In this document: positions 19,806 through 26,299 of the stretch, one piece after another
Numbering within the stretch: the stretch's first letter is position 1
Layout: the number at the start of each line of letters is the position of its first letter
From: a virus
DNA length: 26,299 bases
Reading direction: 5' to 3' (one strand)
Virus record (IMG/VR): IMGVR_UViG_3300012920_000224
Location: 1 to 26,299 of that record
Made by a program: the position numbers and the translations under genes
The notes under the pieces: generated by a model
Database searches by the model: none
Told to the model about the DNA's origin: nothing
The model's input: only the letters and a program-made list of their open reading frames with translations

Positions 19806-21845
19806 ATGGCATCAGTAAATAAGAAATTTGCTGTCGAAAAAGGACTGGAGGTCGGTGATGACGCTCTGGTCGTTGATGCTGATAATAATAAGACTGGTAT
19901 TGGTAAAACTGATGCCAAGTACGGTCTTGATGTAGCAACAACTGCTAATTTTGATGGTATAGTCGCAGCAGGTCAGGTCGGCATAGGAAGCACACAACCA
20001 GCGAACTCTTTGGATGTAAGAGGTGATGCACTATTCGGTGGTAAGATAAGAGATAATTCAGGTGGGGCAGGTACTGACGGACAAGTTATCATATCAACGG
20101 GTTCAGGAACAGGTGCATCATGGTCTTCAACTGCAGAAATTCATACTCTCGCTGCTGACGCTAACAATTCAATACAATTCAAAAAAGCATCTAATGGTAA
20201 ATTTCAGGGTGCTGACAACTTTGTATTCGATCCAACAAACAAACGAGTAGGTATTGGAACAACTCTACCTGAATACTTACTTCAAATCGCAAGAGCACCT
20301 GGCGATAGTTCTAATGGATTCGTACAAATAGGAGGCACATTCCTTGATTCATCAGGTGCAGTTGGTGTTGCTAAGAGTATACTAGCAGCAGGTGAGACAG
20401 GAGAGTTATTATGGGTTGGTGCAGGTGCTAGTGTCACAAATATCCTTCACGTCAACGAGGATGGAAATGATAGTAATGATGGATTTACTCTGAAGACTGC
20501 GAAGAGAACCATAGGTGGTGCTGTAGCGATAGCAACTACAGGTAATACTATAAGAGTTGCTGCTGGTTCGTATACTGAGACAAATCCAGTTATAGTTCCT
20601 AATAACGTTACAATAGACGGTGACGATTTGAGACAGACTCAGATCATACCATCAAATGTTGGAAAAGATTTATTCCATGTAAAGAACGGAACACTTTTAC
20701 AAAACCTATCATTTGTAGGTGCTGCTAACACAGGTGCTATGATTGCTTTCCCACCTGACGGATCAGCAGGTATAATTACACAATCACCATACGTCAGAAA
20801 CTGCACAAACTTCGTACCTAATAGTATGGGTATGAAGGTGGATGGATCTCATGCTATGGGACTGAAGTCAATGAACGTTGACTCATATACACAGTATAAT
20901 CAAGGTGGTATAGGTGTTACCATAAGTAATAACGGATATGCACAGTTAGTATCAATATTCACCATATGTAATGTGACTGGTATTACTGCTGTATCAGGAG
21001 CACAGTGTGATGTCAACAATTCTAACGCATCATTTGGTACGAGAGGTTTAGTTGCATCAGGAGTAGGAACTGTCAATCAAACTGGTGCAGTGGCTCAGGT
21101 AGGTATAGCAGAGGATAATACTATAGTCGTTGGTAGTTTGACTAGCAGACCTTTCACTGGTCAAGTATTCTACCTCGGTGAATTATTCAATGAAGTAAGC
21201 AGTATTTCGATTACCAATGCAGGGTCAGGTTATACCAGCACGAATCCTCCAGTGGTAACAATTGCAGATCCATCAGGACCTGGTGGTATTACTGCAGAGG
21301 GTGTTGCTGTTATAAGTGGTTTTGGTAGTGTAACTTCAATCAACATAAACGCAACTGGGTCACAGTACAGGACGGCTCCAGCAGTCACCATCGCTGCTCC
21401 TAGTTCAGGTGTCACTGCTGCTGCAAGTGCTACCATATCTCCATCCTATTTTACTATAAATAGTGCGACACCCGTAACAGCAGGTGTTTCTACAATTACC
21501 ATTGATCAGAAACTCCCATCTGCTGTAGGCGTTGGTTCGACTGTTCCGTTCGCCAAACAGTCATTGATTCTTGCTTCATCATATACATTTGAGCATGTAG
21601 GTTCAGGTACAAATATCAATACAGCACGTCCTAGCAAGGGTGGCGTTGCGATTCCTGAAAATCAAGCGATATCAGAGCAAGGCGGTAAGGTTGTCTATAC
21701 ATCTACGGATGAGAGAGGTAACCTGAAAGTTGGTGACAACTTCACCATCAATCAACAAACAGGTGACATCACAGGAGATGCTTTCAAAAAGAGCATCCAA
21801 GCACAACTCACTCCACTCATCATAGCAATCGGAGGTAATCTATAA
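19806..21845 (+). CDS. Tail fibre protein with VGIGT repeats, beta-helix and GSGY repeats
   Basis: A 679-aa protein. The N-terminus has repeats of the 'VGIGTt.P...L.V.G' type (for example QVGIGSTQPANSLDVRGD and KRVGIGTTLPEYLLQIA), common in long phage fibres. Residues about 215-430 look like a right-handed beta-helix, opening with ILHVNEDGNDSNDGFTLKTA and KRTIGGAVAIA and including MKVDGSHAMGLKSM, which parallels GMHIDGSKATGFKSM in the 1890-aa fibre. Residues about 470-545 are two GSGY beta repeats (NAGSGYTSTNPPVVTIA, ATGSQYRTAPAVTIA). The C-terminus (595-679) again parallels the large fibre (SYTFEHVGSG, KVVYTSTDERGNLKVG). It therefore looks like a shorter relative of the large fibre lacking the collar. 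A late promoter and strong ribosome site precede it. Confidence 0.8.
   Translation: MASVNKKFAVEKGLEVGDDALVVDADNNKTGIGKTDAKYGLDVATTANFDGIVAAGQVGIGSTQPANSLDVRGDALFGGKIRDNSGGAGTDGQVIISTGSGTGASWSSTAEIHTLAADANNSIQFKKASNGKFQGADNFVFDPTNKRVGIGTTLPEYLLQIARAPGDSSNGFVQIGGTFLDSSGAVGVAKSILAAGETGELLWVGAGASVTNILHVNEDGNDSNDGFTLKTAKRTIGGAVAIATTGNTIRVAAGSYTETNPVIVPNNVTIDGDDLRQTQIIPSNVGKDLFHVKNGTLLQNLSFVGAANTGAMIAFPPDGSAGIITQSPYVRNCTNFVPNSMGMKVDGSHAMGLKSMNVDSYTQYNQGGIGVTISNNGYAQLVSIFTICNVTGITAVSGAQCDVNNSNASFGTRGLVASGVGTVNQTGAVAQVGIAEDNTIVVGSLTSRPFTGQVFYLGELFNEVSSISITNAGSGYTSTNPPVVTIADPSGPGGITAEGVAVISGFGSVTSININATGSQYRTAPAVTIAAPSSGVTAAASATISPSYFTINSATPVTAGVSTITIDQKLPSAVGVGSTVPFAKQSLILASSYTFEHVGSGTNINTARPSKGGVAIPENQAISEQGGKVVYTSTDERGNLKVGDNFTINQQTGDITGDAFKKSIQAQLTPLIIAIGGNL
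21831..21836 (+). promoter_or_regulatory. Shine-Dalgarno GGAGGT for the 112-aa gene
   Basis: A near-consensus site nine bases before the ATG at 21846, encoded in the last codons (Gly-Gly) of the upstream fibre. It suggests efficient translation of the small gene. Confidence 0.6.
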
Positions 21846-22184
21846 ATGGCTGCGATTCCATTAAATCGATTCAAAACTGTAACTCACACTCTTACTACAA
21901 GTAAGGTTGGTATATACACTTGCCCTGCAGGGGTTTCATCGCTAGTCATCTATGGCAATGTTGCAAATGTAGGAACAAGTTCATCTGTCACAGCGTTCAG
22001 TGTTTATCATAGCAGAGATTCAGTAGACACACCCATCGTAGAAAATGCTCGTATTCCACATCAGGATGCGATGTCATTCTTAGATGGAAGATTAGTGTTA
22101 GAAGTAGGTGACGTACTCAAAATCAAGGGTGACTTCTTGAACACACAAAAATGTATAGTTAGTATCTTGGAGAACGCTAAGTAA
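21846..22184 (+). CDS. Small all-beta virion protein of unknown function
   Basis: A 112-aa protein with alternating strands: KTVTHTLTTSKVGIYTCPAG, SSLVIYGNVANVG, SVTAFSVYHS, then FLDGRLVLEVGDVLKIKG and a final KCIVSILE strand. The pattern suggests a compact beta sandwich, a type often found between fibre genes in marine T4-like phages and detected there as a structural protein as far as I recall. It is preceded by a strong GGAGGT and its stop overlaps the next fibre's start (TAATG), so it is produced together with the 615-aa fibre and may be an attachment or connector piece for it. No catalytic motif is seen. Confidence 0.75.
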   Translation: MAAIPLNRFKTVTHTLTTSKVGIYTCPAGVSSLVIYGNVANVGTSSSVTAFSVYHSRDSVDTPIVENARIPHQDAMSFLDGRLVLEVGDVLKIKGDFLNTQKCIVSILENAK

Positions 22185-24031
22185 TGGCAAGACTTCTTTC
22201 AGGCAAAGTTGGTGTTACCAGCTATTCTGGTCTATCTACAGAGAGACAGCAGACTAACGGATTTCCGTCTTTTCTAGGTCTGGAAGAGGTAGAACCTAAT
22301 TTAGGTTTACCATCTAATAACGATTTCGTATTACATGGAGATGTAAACGGAAGAAGATTCTGGGCAGCAGGTTCAGGAGCAGCATCAGGTGCTGTTGATG
22401 GTATAACAGTACAAGACCAAAGTATTACTTCAACAGGTTTTGCTGGTTCAATCACAACATTGAACTTTATAGGTAATGGTGTAACTGTAGAAGATACAAA
22501 GGTGTCTGCAGGTGCAGGGATAGAGGTTGGTGTATCTACAATCACAATCAACAAGGCAAACCTGAATATTCAGGATTCTAGTGGATTTACACCAGTCACA
22601 GGAGTTACAACGGTCAGAGTTGGATCTGGTTTATCATTTGTAGAGATACCACAAGGGCAGTTCTCATCTGGTATTGTATCATTCTTTTCCAATGCCGACT
22701 CCAAAACAGATTTTCAGGACGACAGAGGTAATGATAGTTTTCAGGACGTAACAGTAATAAGAGTAGGTGCAGGTCTTACTATAACTCAACCTGCAGCAGG
22801 GATAGCATCAATATCACCGACAGGTCATGTCGAGCACCTGAAGGTGACAGGTATTGCTTCAGCACCAATATTTGATGGTAACTTACAAGGTAATGTTACT
22901 GGTAATATAACTGGTAATGTCACTGGTAATTTGACAGGTGATTCTGCTGGAACACACACGGGGGCTGTCGTGGGTGACGTGACTGGTAATTTGACTGGTG
23001 AAATAAACTCAGGTCTTGCTACCATAACACAGTTACATGCAGCGACTATCAATACTACTGGTATTATAACTACGTCTGCTGGATTCAATGCACCTGCTGG
23101 ATCGTTCGGCTTCACGGGTGATCTTGTATCTTCTGGTGTAAGTACGGTTGCATTCTTTAGTGGTACTAATATAAAGATATCTGGAATTGGAACTGCTGAT
23201 GGTGGATTCGTTGCACCTGCCAGCAGTCAAGGGTTTGTTGGTAAGTTAGTTGGTGATCACACTGGTAATATAAACTCCACTGGTGTTAGTACCATAACAA
23301 CCTTGAGTGGTACGACTGCCACATACACATCATTTGTTGGATCACTTACAGGATCAGCCTCACTGGTTGACTTAGCACCAGAGACTGCTGATTCAACTTG
23401 TAGTATATTATTTGCAGTCAATCCCACTGGGTCTCAATCTGTAAAAACAAGCACTGGACTTACATTTGATGCCAACGCAGGTATTCTAACTGCAACAGGT
23501 TTCTCAGGCGATGGTAGTAGAATTACAAACTTAGATGCAGGTAATCTAACAGGCACACTATCAAACCTTGATGGATCAGCCCTTACAAACATAGTGTCAT
23601 CATCAGTTGATGTCACTGCAACAAACACAACAAATGCAGATCATTACATATTATTTGCGGACAGTCCCACTGGGGTTGAACCACTAAGAAGTGACACAGA
23701 TCTAAAGTATAATCCTGGTACAAATACATTGACAGCATCAGCGTTCAATGGTTCATGTACAGGACTCACAGGAGATCCAAGTATCTCCGTCACTGACGTT
23801 ACATTGAAAGGAAATATTTTACCAGACACTGATGCTGTGAGGAACTTAGGTTCACCATCAGTAAGATTTTCAAACGTATATACTGCTGACATGCACTTCA
23901 ACAATGAAGGTATCAATAATAGTATAGATGGGACATGGGGTCATTGGACTTTGCAAGAGGGCGATGAGAACATTTTCATGATAAATCAGAGAACTGGTAA
24001 GAGATACAAGATCAATCTAACTGAAGTATAA
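22184..24031 (+). CDS. Tail fibre protein with GNxT repeat tract
   Basis: A 615-aa protein starting at the last base of the previous stop. The N-terminus has MARLLSGKVGVTSYSGLSTE and a conserved-looking FPSFLGLEEVEPNLG (28-42), then LHGDVNGRRFWAAG, probably an attachment domain. Residues about 232-275 are eleven four-residue repeats of the G(N/D)xT kind, and the rest is a series of strand-turn repeats (TGIITTSAGFNAPAG, STVAFFSGTNIKISG, FSGDGSRITNLDAGNLTG). The C-terminal end has ILPDTDAVRNLGSPSVRFSN, VYTADMHFNNEG, and a terminal domain with WTLQEGDENIFMINQRTGK, a module that caps many marine phage fibres. No chaperone domain or collar is visible. It is likely a trimeric fibre of the baseplate region; the receptor is unknown. 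Confidence 0.8.
   Translation: MARLLSGKVGVTSYSGLSTERQQTNGFPSFLGLEEVEPNLGLPSNNDFVLHGDVNGRRFWAAGSGAASGAVDGITVQDQSITSTGFAGSITTLNFIGNGVTVEDTKVSAGAGIEVGVSTITINKANLNIQDSSGFTPVTGVTTVRVGSGLSFVEIPQGQFSSGIVSFFSNADSKTDFQDDRGNDSFQDVTVIRVGAGLTITQPAAGIASISPTGHVEHLKVTGIASAPIFDGNLQGNVTGNITGNVTGNLTGDSAGTHTGAVVGDVTGNLTGEINSGLATITQLHAATINTTGIITTSAGFNAPAGSFGFTGDLVSSGVSTVAFFSGTNIKISGIGTADGGFVAPASSQGFVGKLVGDHTGNINSTGVSTITTLSGTTATYTSFVGSLTGSASLVDLAPETADSTCSILFAVNPTGSQSVKTSTGLTFDANAGILTATGFSGDGSRITNLDAGNLTGTLSNLDGSALTNIVSSSVDVTATNTTNADHYILFADSPTGVEPLRSDTDLKYNPGTNTLTASAFNGSCTGLTGDPSISVTDVTLKGNILPDTDAVRNLGSPSVRFSNVYTADMHFNNEGINNSIDGTWGHWTLQEGDENIFMINQRTGKRYKINLTEV
22877..23008 (+). repeat. Eleven tandem 12-bp (4-residue) repeats in the 615-aa fibre
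   Basis: Consecutive 12-base units GGTAAYNTNACT and diverged forms encode GNLQ-GNVT-GNIT-GNVT-GNLT followed by GDSA-GTHT-GAVV-GDVT-GNLT-GEIN. The first five and the ninth to tenth are close to consensus, the central three (22949-22984) have drifted but keep the Gly codon in register. Each unit would supply one strand-turn step of a beta-helix or triple-stranded fibre. Such a tract can change length by slippage or recombination. Confidence 0.85.
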
Positions 24032-24063: not shown

Positions 24064-26299
24064 ATGTCAAGAGGAAGAGAGCTAGCCAAGGTCGGTGGTA
24101 CTACTCAGACGATTTCTGGTATATCAACTTTTGTTGGTATCTCAACCTTTGCGTCTGACGTAAGAATCCACGGAAAACTAGATGTAGACGGAGATATATC
24201 ATATGATGAGATGACATCTGTCAACTCTAAAGTAACAGGTGTAAGTACAGTTACAGATATTAGGGTCGATAGAAATATAAACGTTGCTGGTATTACATCA
24301 GTCACTGGTGCGTTAGATGCAAATGGTGGTGCTACAATAAACACACTAATTGTAGAAGATCTCACTGACAATAGAGTTGTCATCGCAGGTACAGGTGGTG
24401 AGATAGAGGACAGTGGTAATTTGACTTTTGATGGATCAACACTTGCTGTTACAGGATCACAGACAATCAGTAGTAACATAACTGTTACTGGTAACATAGT
24501 TGGTAATGGAGATGTCGATTTAGGAAACGCCACCAGCGACACAATCACCGCCACAGGTAGATTTGACAGTGATATAGTACCAAGCACAGATGGAGCAAGA
24601 GATTTAGGTGCATCTGGATTAGAATTCAAAGATTTATATATTGATGGTACTGCAAATATAGATGCCTTAGTTGCCGACACAGCGATAGTATCTGATTTGA
24701 CTGACAACAGAGTTGTCATAGCAGGTACATCAGGAGAGTTGGAAGATAGTGCCAATCTTACTTTTGATGGTTCAACACTTGCAGTCACAGGTGCTGCCAC
24801 AGTATCAACCACTCTTGGTGTTACTGGCGAATCTACATTAGCATCCGCTACAGTCAGTGATCTAACAGACAATAGAGTCGTCATTGCAGGTACATCAGGT
24901 GCTCTAGAAGACAGTGCAAACCTTACGTTTGATGGCACAACACTCGATGTCAATGGAGACATAGAGGGATTTAGTCATACCTCTGCTCCTCATGGTTCTA
25001 CCACATCACTTACTGTGACTGTTGTTACTAAGGATGCAACTCACAGGTACAATGGTACAGGAAGCAGTAATGGTTATGCGATTGATGGAGTTCAAGCACC
25101 AACTCTTCATTTCACACCTGGCAGAACTTATAGGTTCGTACATGATAATACAGGGTCACACCCACTCAAGTTTTATCTTGAAGCAGATAAAACAACAAAC
25201 TACACTACAGGTGTAAGTTTCCAAGATACCTACACTGAGATTGCGGTAGGTGATGAGACACCAGCGATATTACATTATCAATGTACTGCTCATGCTAACA
25301 TGGGTAATGTTATAGTAACAAACTCAAATGTAGTCAATTCAAATTACGCTGGAACACTAAGAGGTGGTTTGACTGTTACAGGTGCAGAAACAACATTGTC
25401 ATCTGCTACAGTTTCTGACCTCACATCAGGTCGTGTCACATATGCAGGTGGTTCAGGAGCTTTACAAGACTCAGGTAATCTTACATTCGATGGCACAACA
25501 TTGACCGCAGCAGCAGGTGCTATCACTGGTGCTTTCGATGTTGATGGTGCGACAACTCTTGATGGGTTGACAGTGGCAGAAGCAGCAACTTTCTCTGCAG
25601 GTGTTACCATAACTGGTGCTCTTGATGCTAACGGTGGTGCATCCATTGATAACGTACAAATTGGTGTCACTGGTGATAACGAGATTGATACTTCTTCAGG
25701 TAACCTAACACTCGACTCAGCAGGTGGTACTATAACTCTTGATGATGCTGTAACAGTCACAGGAAATCTAACAGTCACAGGAAACTTACAGATTGATGGA
25801 TCAACCACAACTGTGAACTCCACAACAATGACTGTGGATGACAAAAATATTGTTCTAGGTTCTGGAGCAGCAAATGATGCAGCATGTGATGGTAGTGGTA
25901 TAACTGCAGAGTCTGGTGATGGTAATAAGACATTCAATTGGGTTGATTCAACTGATGCGTGGACATCATCTGAGCATCTAGATCTAGCGTCAGGTAAAGG
26001 TTATAAGTTGAATGGAACAACAGTATTGAGTGGAACAACACTAGGATCTAGTATTGTTACATCATCACTTACTGCTCTTGGTACTATATCCACAGGTGTA
26101 TGGAATGGTACTGCAATAGGTAATGACTACATCGCTGCTATCACATCACCTAATAAAGTAGCACTTAGTTCTCTTGACCTTGATGGAGGCACAGACATAG
26201 GTGCAGCACTGGCAGACGCTGACTTACTAATTGTAGATGATGGTGCAGGTGGCACTAACAGAAAGACTGCTGCATCACGTATCCCAGTATATGTTTTCA
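24064..26299 (+). CDS. Tail fibre protein with repeat units and an inserted cupredoxin-like domain (3' end outside window)
   Basis: Open from ATG 24064 to the window edge, 745 residues so far. The N-terminus MSRGRELAKVGGTTQTISGI leads into repeated beta modules. A 34-residue unit (SDLTDNRVVIAGTSGELEDS then NLTFDGSTLAVTG) occurs four times. Between copies 3 and 4, residues about 316-420 form a cupredoxin-like domain with putative copper ligands His366 (GSHPLKF) and Cys407, His410, Met413 (YQCTAHANMGN). Residues about 567-700 are the widespread marine fibre module NLTVTGNLQIDGSTTTVNST, VDDKNIVLGSGA and LGSSIVTSSLTALGTI. The late promoter at 24027-24034 serves it. It is probably a distal or side tail fibre; its C-terminal tip, which would show the receptor-binding or chaperone domain, is outside the window. 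Confidence 0.85.
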   Translation, partial: MSRGRELAKVGGTTQTISGISTFVGISTFASDVRIHGKLDVDGDISYDEMTSVNSKVTGVSTVTDIRVDRNINVAGITSVTGALDANGGATINTLIVEDLTDNRVVIAGTGGEIEDSGNLTFDGSTLAVTGSQTISSNITVTGNIVGNGDVDLGNATSDTITATGRFDSDIVPSTDGARDLGASGLEFKDLYIDGTANIDALVADTAIVSDLTDNRVVIAGTSGELEDSANLTFDGSTLAVTGAATVSTTLGVTGESTLASATVSDLTDNRVVIAGTSGALEDSANLTFDGTTLDVNGDIEGFSHTSAPHGSTTSLTVTVVTKDATHRYNGTGSSNGYAIDGVQAPTLHFTPGRTYRFVHDNTGSHPLKFYLEADKTTNYTTGVSFQDTYTEIAVGDETPAILHYQCTAHANMGNVIVTNSNVVNSNYAGTLRGGLTVTGAETTLSSATVSDLTSGRVTYAGGSGALQDSGNLTFDGTTLTAAAGAITGAFDVDGATTLDGLTVAEAATFSAGVTITGALDANGGASIDNVQIGVTGDNEIDTSSGNLTLDSAGGTITLDDAVTVTGNLTVTGNLQIDGSTTTVNSTTMTVDDKNIVLGSGAANDAACDGSGITAESGDGNKTFNWVDSTDAWTSSEHLDLASGKGYKLNGTTVLSGTTLGSSIVTSSLTALGTISTGVWNGTAIGNDYIAAITSPNKVALSSLDLDGGTDIGAALADADLLIVDDGAGGTNRKTAASRIPVYVF
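24355..25515 (+). repeat. Four copies of a 34-residue fibre repeat, spaced 336, 165 and 558 bases
   Basis: Units start at 24355, 24691, 24856 and 25414, each about 102 bases and reading E/SDLT..RV..AG..G.L.DS.NLTFDG.TL. Units 2 and 3 are nearly identical in protein and similar in DNA. The 2-to-3 spacing of 165 bases (55 residues) looks like the basic period; the 3-to-4 spacing exceeds it by 393 bases, the size of the inserted cupredoxin-like domain. The 1-to-2 spacing contains an additional module (DIVPSTDGARDLGASGLEFK). Confidence 0.85.
25009..25326 (+). other. Cupredoxin-like domain within the last fibre
   Basis: Residues about 316-421: strands SLTVTVVT, YAIDGVQAPTLHFTPGRTYR, FVHDNTGSHPLKFYL and ILHYQCTAHANMGNVIVTN. 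The order His, then Cys-x2-His-x2-Met near the C-terminus is the type-1 copper ligand set; the C-x2-H-x2-M spacing equals that of amicyanin, the shortest natural ligand loop. The rest, with its hydrophobic strand pattern and 'AP.LHF..G.TYRF' entry, fits the plastocyanin/azurin fold. Copper binding is inferred, not shown. Confidence 0.65.

Follow-up and report, generated by a model that had tools for sequence, protein, structure and literature searches.

A widespread cupredoxin module with a predicted type-1 copper site in marine phage tail proteins

We identified a domain within a phage tail-fibre gene that, on the basis of structural models and profile comparison, belongs to the cupredoxin superfamily and carries the four ligands of a predicted type-1 (blue) copper site. 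The module is not confined to this fibre. It recurs across the tails of marine phages, most often in the baseplate protein gp9, and in large surface proteins of some Prochlorococcus, and almost every copy found retains the ligands.

The window, by which we mean the whole stretch of 26,299 nucleotides analysed here, is a 26.3-kb viral record. The gene carrying the domain (24064–26298, + strand; 745 codons) is open at the 3′ end of the window and continues past the end of the record. Residues 272–458 of its product, spanning the domain and the neighbouring region, match the marine phage family PHROG 30742, ‘tail fiber protein’ (E = 3.8e-41), and its relatives in the isolates P-TIM68, P-SSM2, Bellamy, Melnitz and Mosig are annotated as tail fibres. 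Three upstream genes (19806–24031, +; 679, 112 and 615 amino acids) form part of the same tail-fibre cluster by PHROG matches, the first and third matching tail fibre families and the second (112 amino acids) matching PHROG 1276, of unknown function. The order and sizes of this trio are similar to those of PSSM2_293–295 in P-SSM2, a comparison made at the level of the cluster rather than by gene-by-gene alignment. Other genes nearby make up the tail module of a contractile-tailed phage, with baseplate wedge, tail tube cap, tail tube, hub and several fibres. As an upstream 1,890-amino-acid fibre matches 460 phage records, all of them named Synechococcus, Prochlorococcus, cyanophage or marine virus, the source is likely a phage that infects marine picocyanobacteria, or else one closely related to such phages. 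We also observed a 2OG-Fe(II) oxygenase gene (240–791, +; PHROG 81) at the edge of the tail module and, in the neighbouring fibre (22184–24031, +), a Gly-zipper-like repeat (GNVTGN...) at residues ~234–272 that scores under Pfam cut-offs.

The cupredoxin domain covers residues ~313–420 (25000–25323, +). A preliminary description of this DNA had assigned it to 25009–25326 (residues 316–421), which approximates the whole domain, the first strand of our model beginning at residue 313. By sequence and model, the first copper ligand is His366 (SHPLKF; CAC, 25159–25161, +), just ahead of strand 4, and the remaining three lie in a loop between strands 7 and 8, Cys407-x2-His410-x2-Met413 (CTAHANM; 25282–25302, +). 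Sequence and conservation place these at Cys407 (TGT, 25282–25284), His410 (CAT, 25291–25293) and the axial ligand Met413 (ATG, 25300–25302). Translation of the open reading frame puts all four residues exactly where that description had them, and their spacing and the C-x2-H-x2-M loop, which has the length of the amicyanin loop, are likewise as it reported. Two His, a Cys and an axial Met at the edge of strand 4 and in the strand 7–8 loop are the ligand placement of a type-1 copper site.

AlphaFold2, supplied with 46 relatives, modelled the domain as eight strands with a pLDDT of 87. In this model the first ligand precedes strand 4, the Cys lies at the end of strand 7, and the second His and the Met occupy the loop before strand 8, a predicted layout that is the cupredoxin arrangement. 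A second model, of a divergent subfamily to which the gp9 and podovirus copies are related, reached a pLDDT of 95.7. When both models were compared with the PDB using Foldseek, copper proteins dominated the best 50 matches of each, rusticyanin, copper nitrite reductases, laccases, CueO and bilirubin oxidase above all; pseudoazurin, amicyanin and plastocyanin also appear, and the TM-scores are modest (0.4–0.6). One of these two best-50 lists also contains clotting factors V and VIII, which have the cupredoxin fold, and the other contains one unrelated protein. The predicted fold is thus a Greek-key beta-sandwich of about eight strands like that of solved cupredoxins; the preliminary description had named a fold of another kind as the outcome that would count against it.

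Profile comparison points to homology as well as resemblance. Using hhalign, the phage profile A5 aligned to an alignment of bacterial plastocyanin, azurin and other cupredoxins at 95.9% (E = 5e-9) with the four ligands in register, and the wider phage profile A3 aligned to cellular cupredoxins at 85% (E = 6e-6), while flanking fibre sequence, used as a control, gave 0.1% (E = 0.47). Profile A3 also matches a small secreted protein in several genomes of the genus that contains Prochlorococcus (E = 3e-10 to 4e-9), and this protein itself passes the plastocyanin/azurin family PF00127 (30.0 bits against a cut-off of 21.2). As a single sequence, the window domain had no match above Pfam or NCBIfam cut-offs, and direct PDB and Pfam searches gave either no match or matches below cut-off. 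PF00127 did not match it and only weakly matched a few relatives (best E about 0.01). The amicyanin family TIGR02657 (cut-off 110 bits) did not match it either, the highest score among relatives being 16.3 bits for the gp9 copy of S-ShM2. Nor does it group with the multicopper oxidases, as the fibre contains one such domain and HxH motifs are absent beside the type-1 ligands. Given the confident models, the profile match with ligands in register and the bridging Prochlorococcus-group protein, we assign the domain, on predicted structure and sequence profiles, to the cupredoxin superfamily outside PF00127. A chance motif or a non-cupredoxin fold was considered and ruled out by the models, the Foldseek matches and the profile comparison.

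We assessed ligand conservation in 329 distinct copies drawn from 405 loci together with the window. Conservation is 98.8, 98.8, 98.1 and 98.4% at the four ligand columns, which all rank among the five most conserved of the alignment. Their codons vary synonymously, between CAT and CAC for His and between TGT and TGC for Cys, suggesting purifying selection rather than recent spread. Because seeds that contain the ligands could bias such constancy, ligand-blind searches were carried out. A search with the N-terminal half, whose query stops before His366, recovered 79 complete copies, in which the first His and the Cys are present in 79/79 and the second His and the Met in 77/79; these are close relatives that are conserved overall, with a median of 0.76 for columns of the C-terminal half. 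In a search of the divergent subfamily blind to the Cys, second His and Met, with a query that still contained the first His, 78/78 copies were intact. In view of these limits, the stronger evidence comes from the 329-copy set and from cultured isolates, in which all 12 copies, at 27–56% identity to the query and ranging from gp9 to a subtilisin-like protein, are intact and read HP...C-x2-H-x2-M. An artefact of ligand-containing seeds was considered and rejected on this evidence. Free variation of the four residues among relatives, which the preliminary description had singled out as telling against a copper site, is not what we found, with 98–99% kept. Predicted fold, profile homology and ligand constancy together support its central claim, that the tail fibre of a phage contains a cupredoxin-like domain with an intact type-1 copper site.

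Real ligand losses are few. Two fibre copies (L200 and L209) have Gln in place of the second His and Glu in place of the Met with the rest of the domain kept, and thus represent natural ligand-loss variants; one copy (L324) has Gln in place of the Met and another (L318) lacks the Cys. In two others (L162 and L193) the ligands are all present, but two extra residues lengthen their loop (C-x4-H-x2-M). Ligand-free related copies share proteins or contigs with intact ones at three loci (L324, L336 and L399) and may be decayed copies or other beta-sandwich domains. Their position beside intact copies suggests that the domain can fold without the ligands, which makes retention elsewhere more telling. 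The loop ahead of the first ligand (His366) differs in length among relatives.

With the version in the window as query, the module was found in 49 phage records, and with the gp9-type version in 351 marine records, almost all of them cyanophages; for comparison, the 1,890-amino-acid cyanomyovirus fibre gene of the window matches 460. The gp9-type version mostly forms the C terminus of gp9, the baseplate–fibre connector of cyanomyoviruses. The module is also present in T7-like cyanophages and in phages that infect SAR11 (pelagiphages) or Methylophilales, and is inserted in an S8-protease-like protein. The preliminary description was thus correct in locating the domain in a tail fibre, while its picture of a single odd fibre gives way to that of a widespread module of marine phage tails. 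In S-H9-1 and S-CAM4 (L436 and L437), the module ends a protein of ~670 amino acids that adjoins a structural protein gene and, in S-H9-1, bears the annotation of a subtilisin-like protease. Two copies per open frame, sometimes of different subfamilies, occur in some fibres (L011:4858-5175, L129, L167, L345 and L354).

Beyond phages, 5 of 101 sampled genomes of the Prochlorococcus-containing genus encode the module (E = 3e-32 to 2e-42) in frames of 804 to 2,970 codons (L440:13147-19650, L441, L442, L443 and L444), each with all ligands. In L440, the one examined, Ig-like domains and RTX repeats surround it, and the contig also bears ordinary chromosomal genes (an EngA-type GTPase, CbiQ and pyrroline-5-carboxylate reductase). 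The same host genus has small free-standing relatives (L445–L449 and L453) with a signal-peptide-like N terminus and a C-x2-H-x4-M loop; the one scanned is the protein that passes PF00127. Fibre-like genes with the module were also found on contigs filed as archaeal, flavobacterial, SAR11 or planctomycete (L082, L083, L084 and L085), some of which look like phage sequence inside metagenome-assembled or single-cell genomes. Structure matches of the fibre domain in BFVD include ‘beta-sandwich’ proteins of giant viruses, Pithovirus LCPAC and Marseillevirus LCMAC (A0A481Z6J5, A0A481Z7Q7 and A0A481YWX9), which are known here as matches of fold rather than of ligands.

We tentatively propose that the family is a metal-clamped rigid or adhesive module with a predicted type-1 copper site, common to phage tails and host surface proteins. 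The apo domain would fold inside the host cell and take up copper at its site during or after lysis. The bound metal would then clamp the beta-sandwich at its loop end, in the manner suggested for iron at the HxH sites of T4-type fibre tips, and the particle would so gain an external spacer or adhesive knob that is rigid and stable. Because the four ligands are kept in almost every relative, the tail proteins probably bind copper and virus particles probably carry it. A structural or adhesive use appears likeliest, ahead of redox and decoy functions, on two grounds: the module sits among repeats in unrelated external proteins (fibres, gp9, the S8-protease-like protein and RTX/Ig-like host surface proteins), and relatives differ in the length of the loop that precedes the first His. 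The preliminary description had likewise listed stabilisation of the fibre by metal, along with a decoy for a host cupredoxin-binding protein. Against this, a purely structural module could make do with a different metal site or no site at all, and a few copies have indeed lost the ligands, so that the near-invariance could point to a chemical role instead. It is also possible, although we hold this wider claim more loosely, that the virions of a large share of ocean cyanophages and related marine phages are copper proteins, each with a fixed set of type-1 sites (gp9 at the baseplate, and the fibres) on which the working of the tail or contact with the host depends, and that the module has been shared with host surface proteins by gene exchange.

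A chemical role could take the form of a redox-active fibre, as the preliminary description had raised, in which the copper centre swaps electrons with a partner at the host surface or in the periplasm, or senses redox state, during adsorption or injection. The full type-1 ligand set, the amicyanin-like loop and the kinship to electron carriers are consistent with this, but no partner, second cofactor or conserved docking surface was identified, and neither the variable loop before His366 nor the presence of the module in several unrelated external proteins and host surface proteins fits well with a dedicated electron-transfer site; we consider such a function quite unlikely. The copper-loaded domain might alternatively aid adsorption as a lure or mimic, recognized by a host receptor whose ligand is copper itself or the related cupredoxin that the host carries on its surface or secretes. 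Prochlorococcus-group hosts do encode the module, as part of giant surface proteins, together with a secreted cupredoxin related to it, and a Trojan-horse action of this kind has been proposed for iron bound at HxH sites in marine fibres (PMC11705849). However, no receptor was identified, the giant-protein version occurs in only the five host genomes above, and the module also occurs at the baseplate, in gp9, and in phages whose hosts are SAR11 or Methylophilales, so that we regard a lure as unlikely.

The two remaining explanations concern the metal itself. The site might hold zinc or another metal in a purely structural capacity, given that Cys-His-His-Met sites are generally known to take other metals in vitro and that copper in seawater and in the host is tightly complexed. 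An axial Met in type-1 sites favours copper over zinc, though, and this residue is kept in 98% of copies, making another metal improbable. Finally, the domain could be a metal-free spacer with vestigial ligands, as the ligand-free copies adjoining intact ones might suggest. The same copies show, however, that the fold does not force the ligands to be kept, and ligands that rank among the most conserved columns while their codons vary synonymously, in agreement with the ligand-blind samples and isolates, argue strongly against this explanation, which we consider very improbable. The structural or adhesive, metal-bearing module remains the reading that we prefer.

If the sites do hold copper, very abundant marine viruses would have metalloprotein assemblies as their particles, virus stability or adsorption could depend on copper availability, and viruses would constitute a pool of strongly bound copper in surface seawater. 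The question of phages and metals, which has so far mainly concerned iron in the HxH sites of fibres, gains a second metal with a well-understood ligand set. As gp9 and the fibre domains are small and present in cultured cyanophages, the question of copper is directly testable. A literature search combining cupredoxin, blue copper or plastocyanin-like proteins with phage tails returned no relevant paper; subscription literature lay mostly outside its reach, and an earlier description is possible. A paper on viral nirK (PMC8115048), considered as such a description, deals with an unrelated nitrite reductase gene. The window domain matches inside two families (E = 5.7e-41 and 1.6e-10), neither of which is annotated as a cupredoxin or copper protein. 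The fold and the site are already known, while their setting, breadth and constancy in virion proteins look unreported.

Among the closest known systems is the plastocyanin/azurin family (PF00127), including amicyanin (TIGR02657), with which the module shares the eight-stranded fold and the topological places of the His, Cys, His and Met. The phage C-x2-H-x2-M loop equals that of amicyanin in length, and the ligands are in register in the profile match. In contrast to these families, all phage copies score under the cut-offs, the first ligand is followed by Pro (His-Pro) rather than Asn (His-Asn), and the module is a domain within large virion proteins and not a free electron carrier. Copper nitrite reductases provide its best PDB profile match (E = 3e-4), and small laccases, NirK and CueO are among the best 50 Foldseek matches. 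Laccases also share the His-Pro at the first ligand, within their HPxHLHG motif. Unlike multicopper oxidases, laccases and copper nitrite reductases, however, the phage module is a single domain without type-2 or type-3 ligands and shows no sign of being an enzyme. Iron-binding HxH motifs occur in the tail fibres of T4-type and marine phages (PMC11705849) and likewise place a metal on external tail-fibre proteins, but metal, fold and ligands all differ, and the HxH sites lie on the axis of the fibre trimer while the cupredoxin site lies within one domain. Another cupredoxin of such phages is plastocyanin, encoded by the cyanophage gene petE (PMC3037559). That gene is small, separate and of host origin, and serves photosynthetic electron flow, whereas the module described here is built into the tail proteins.
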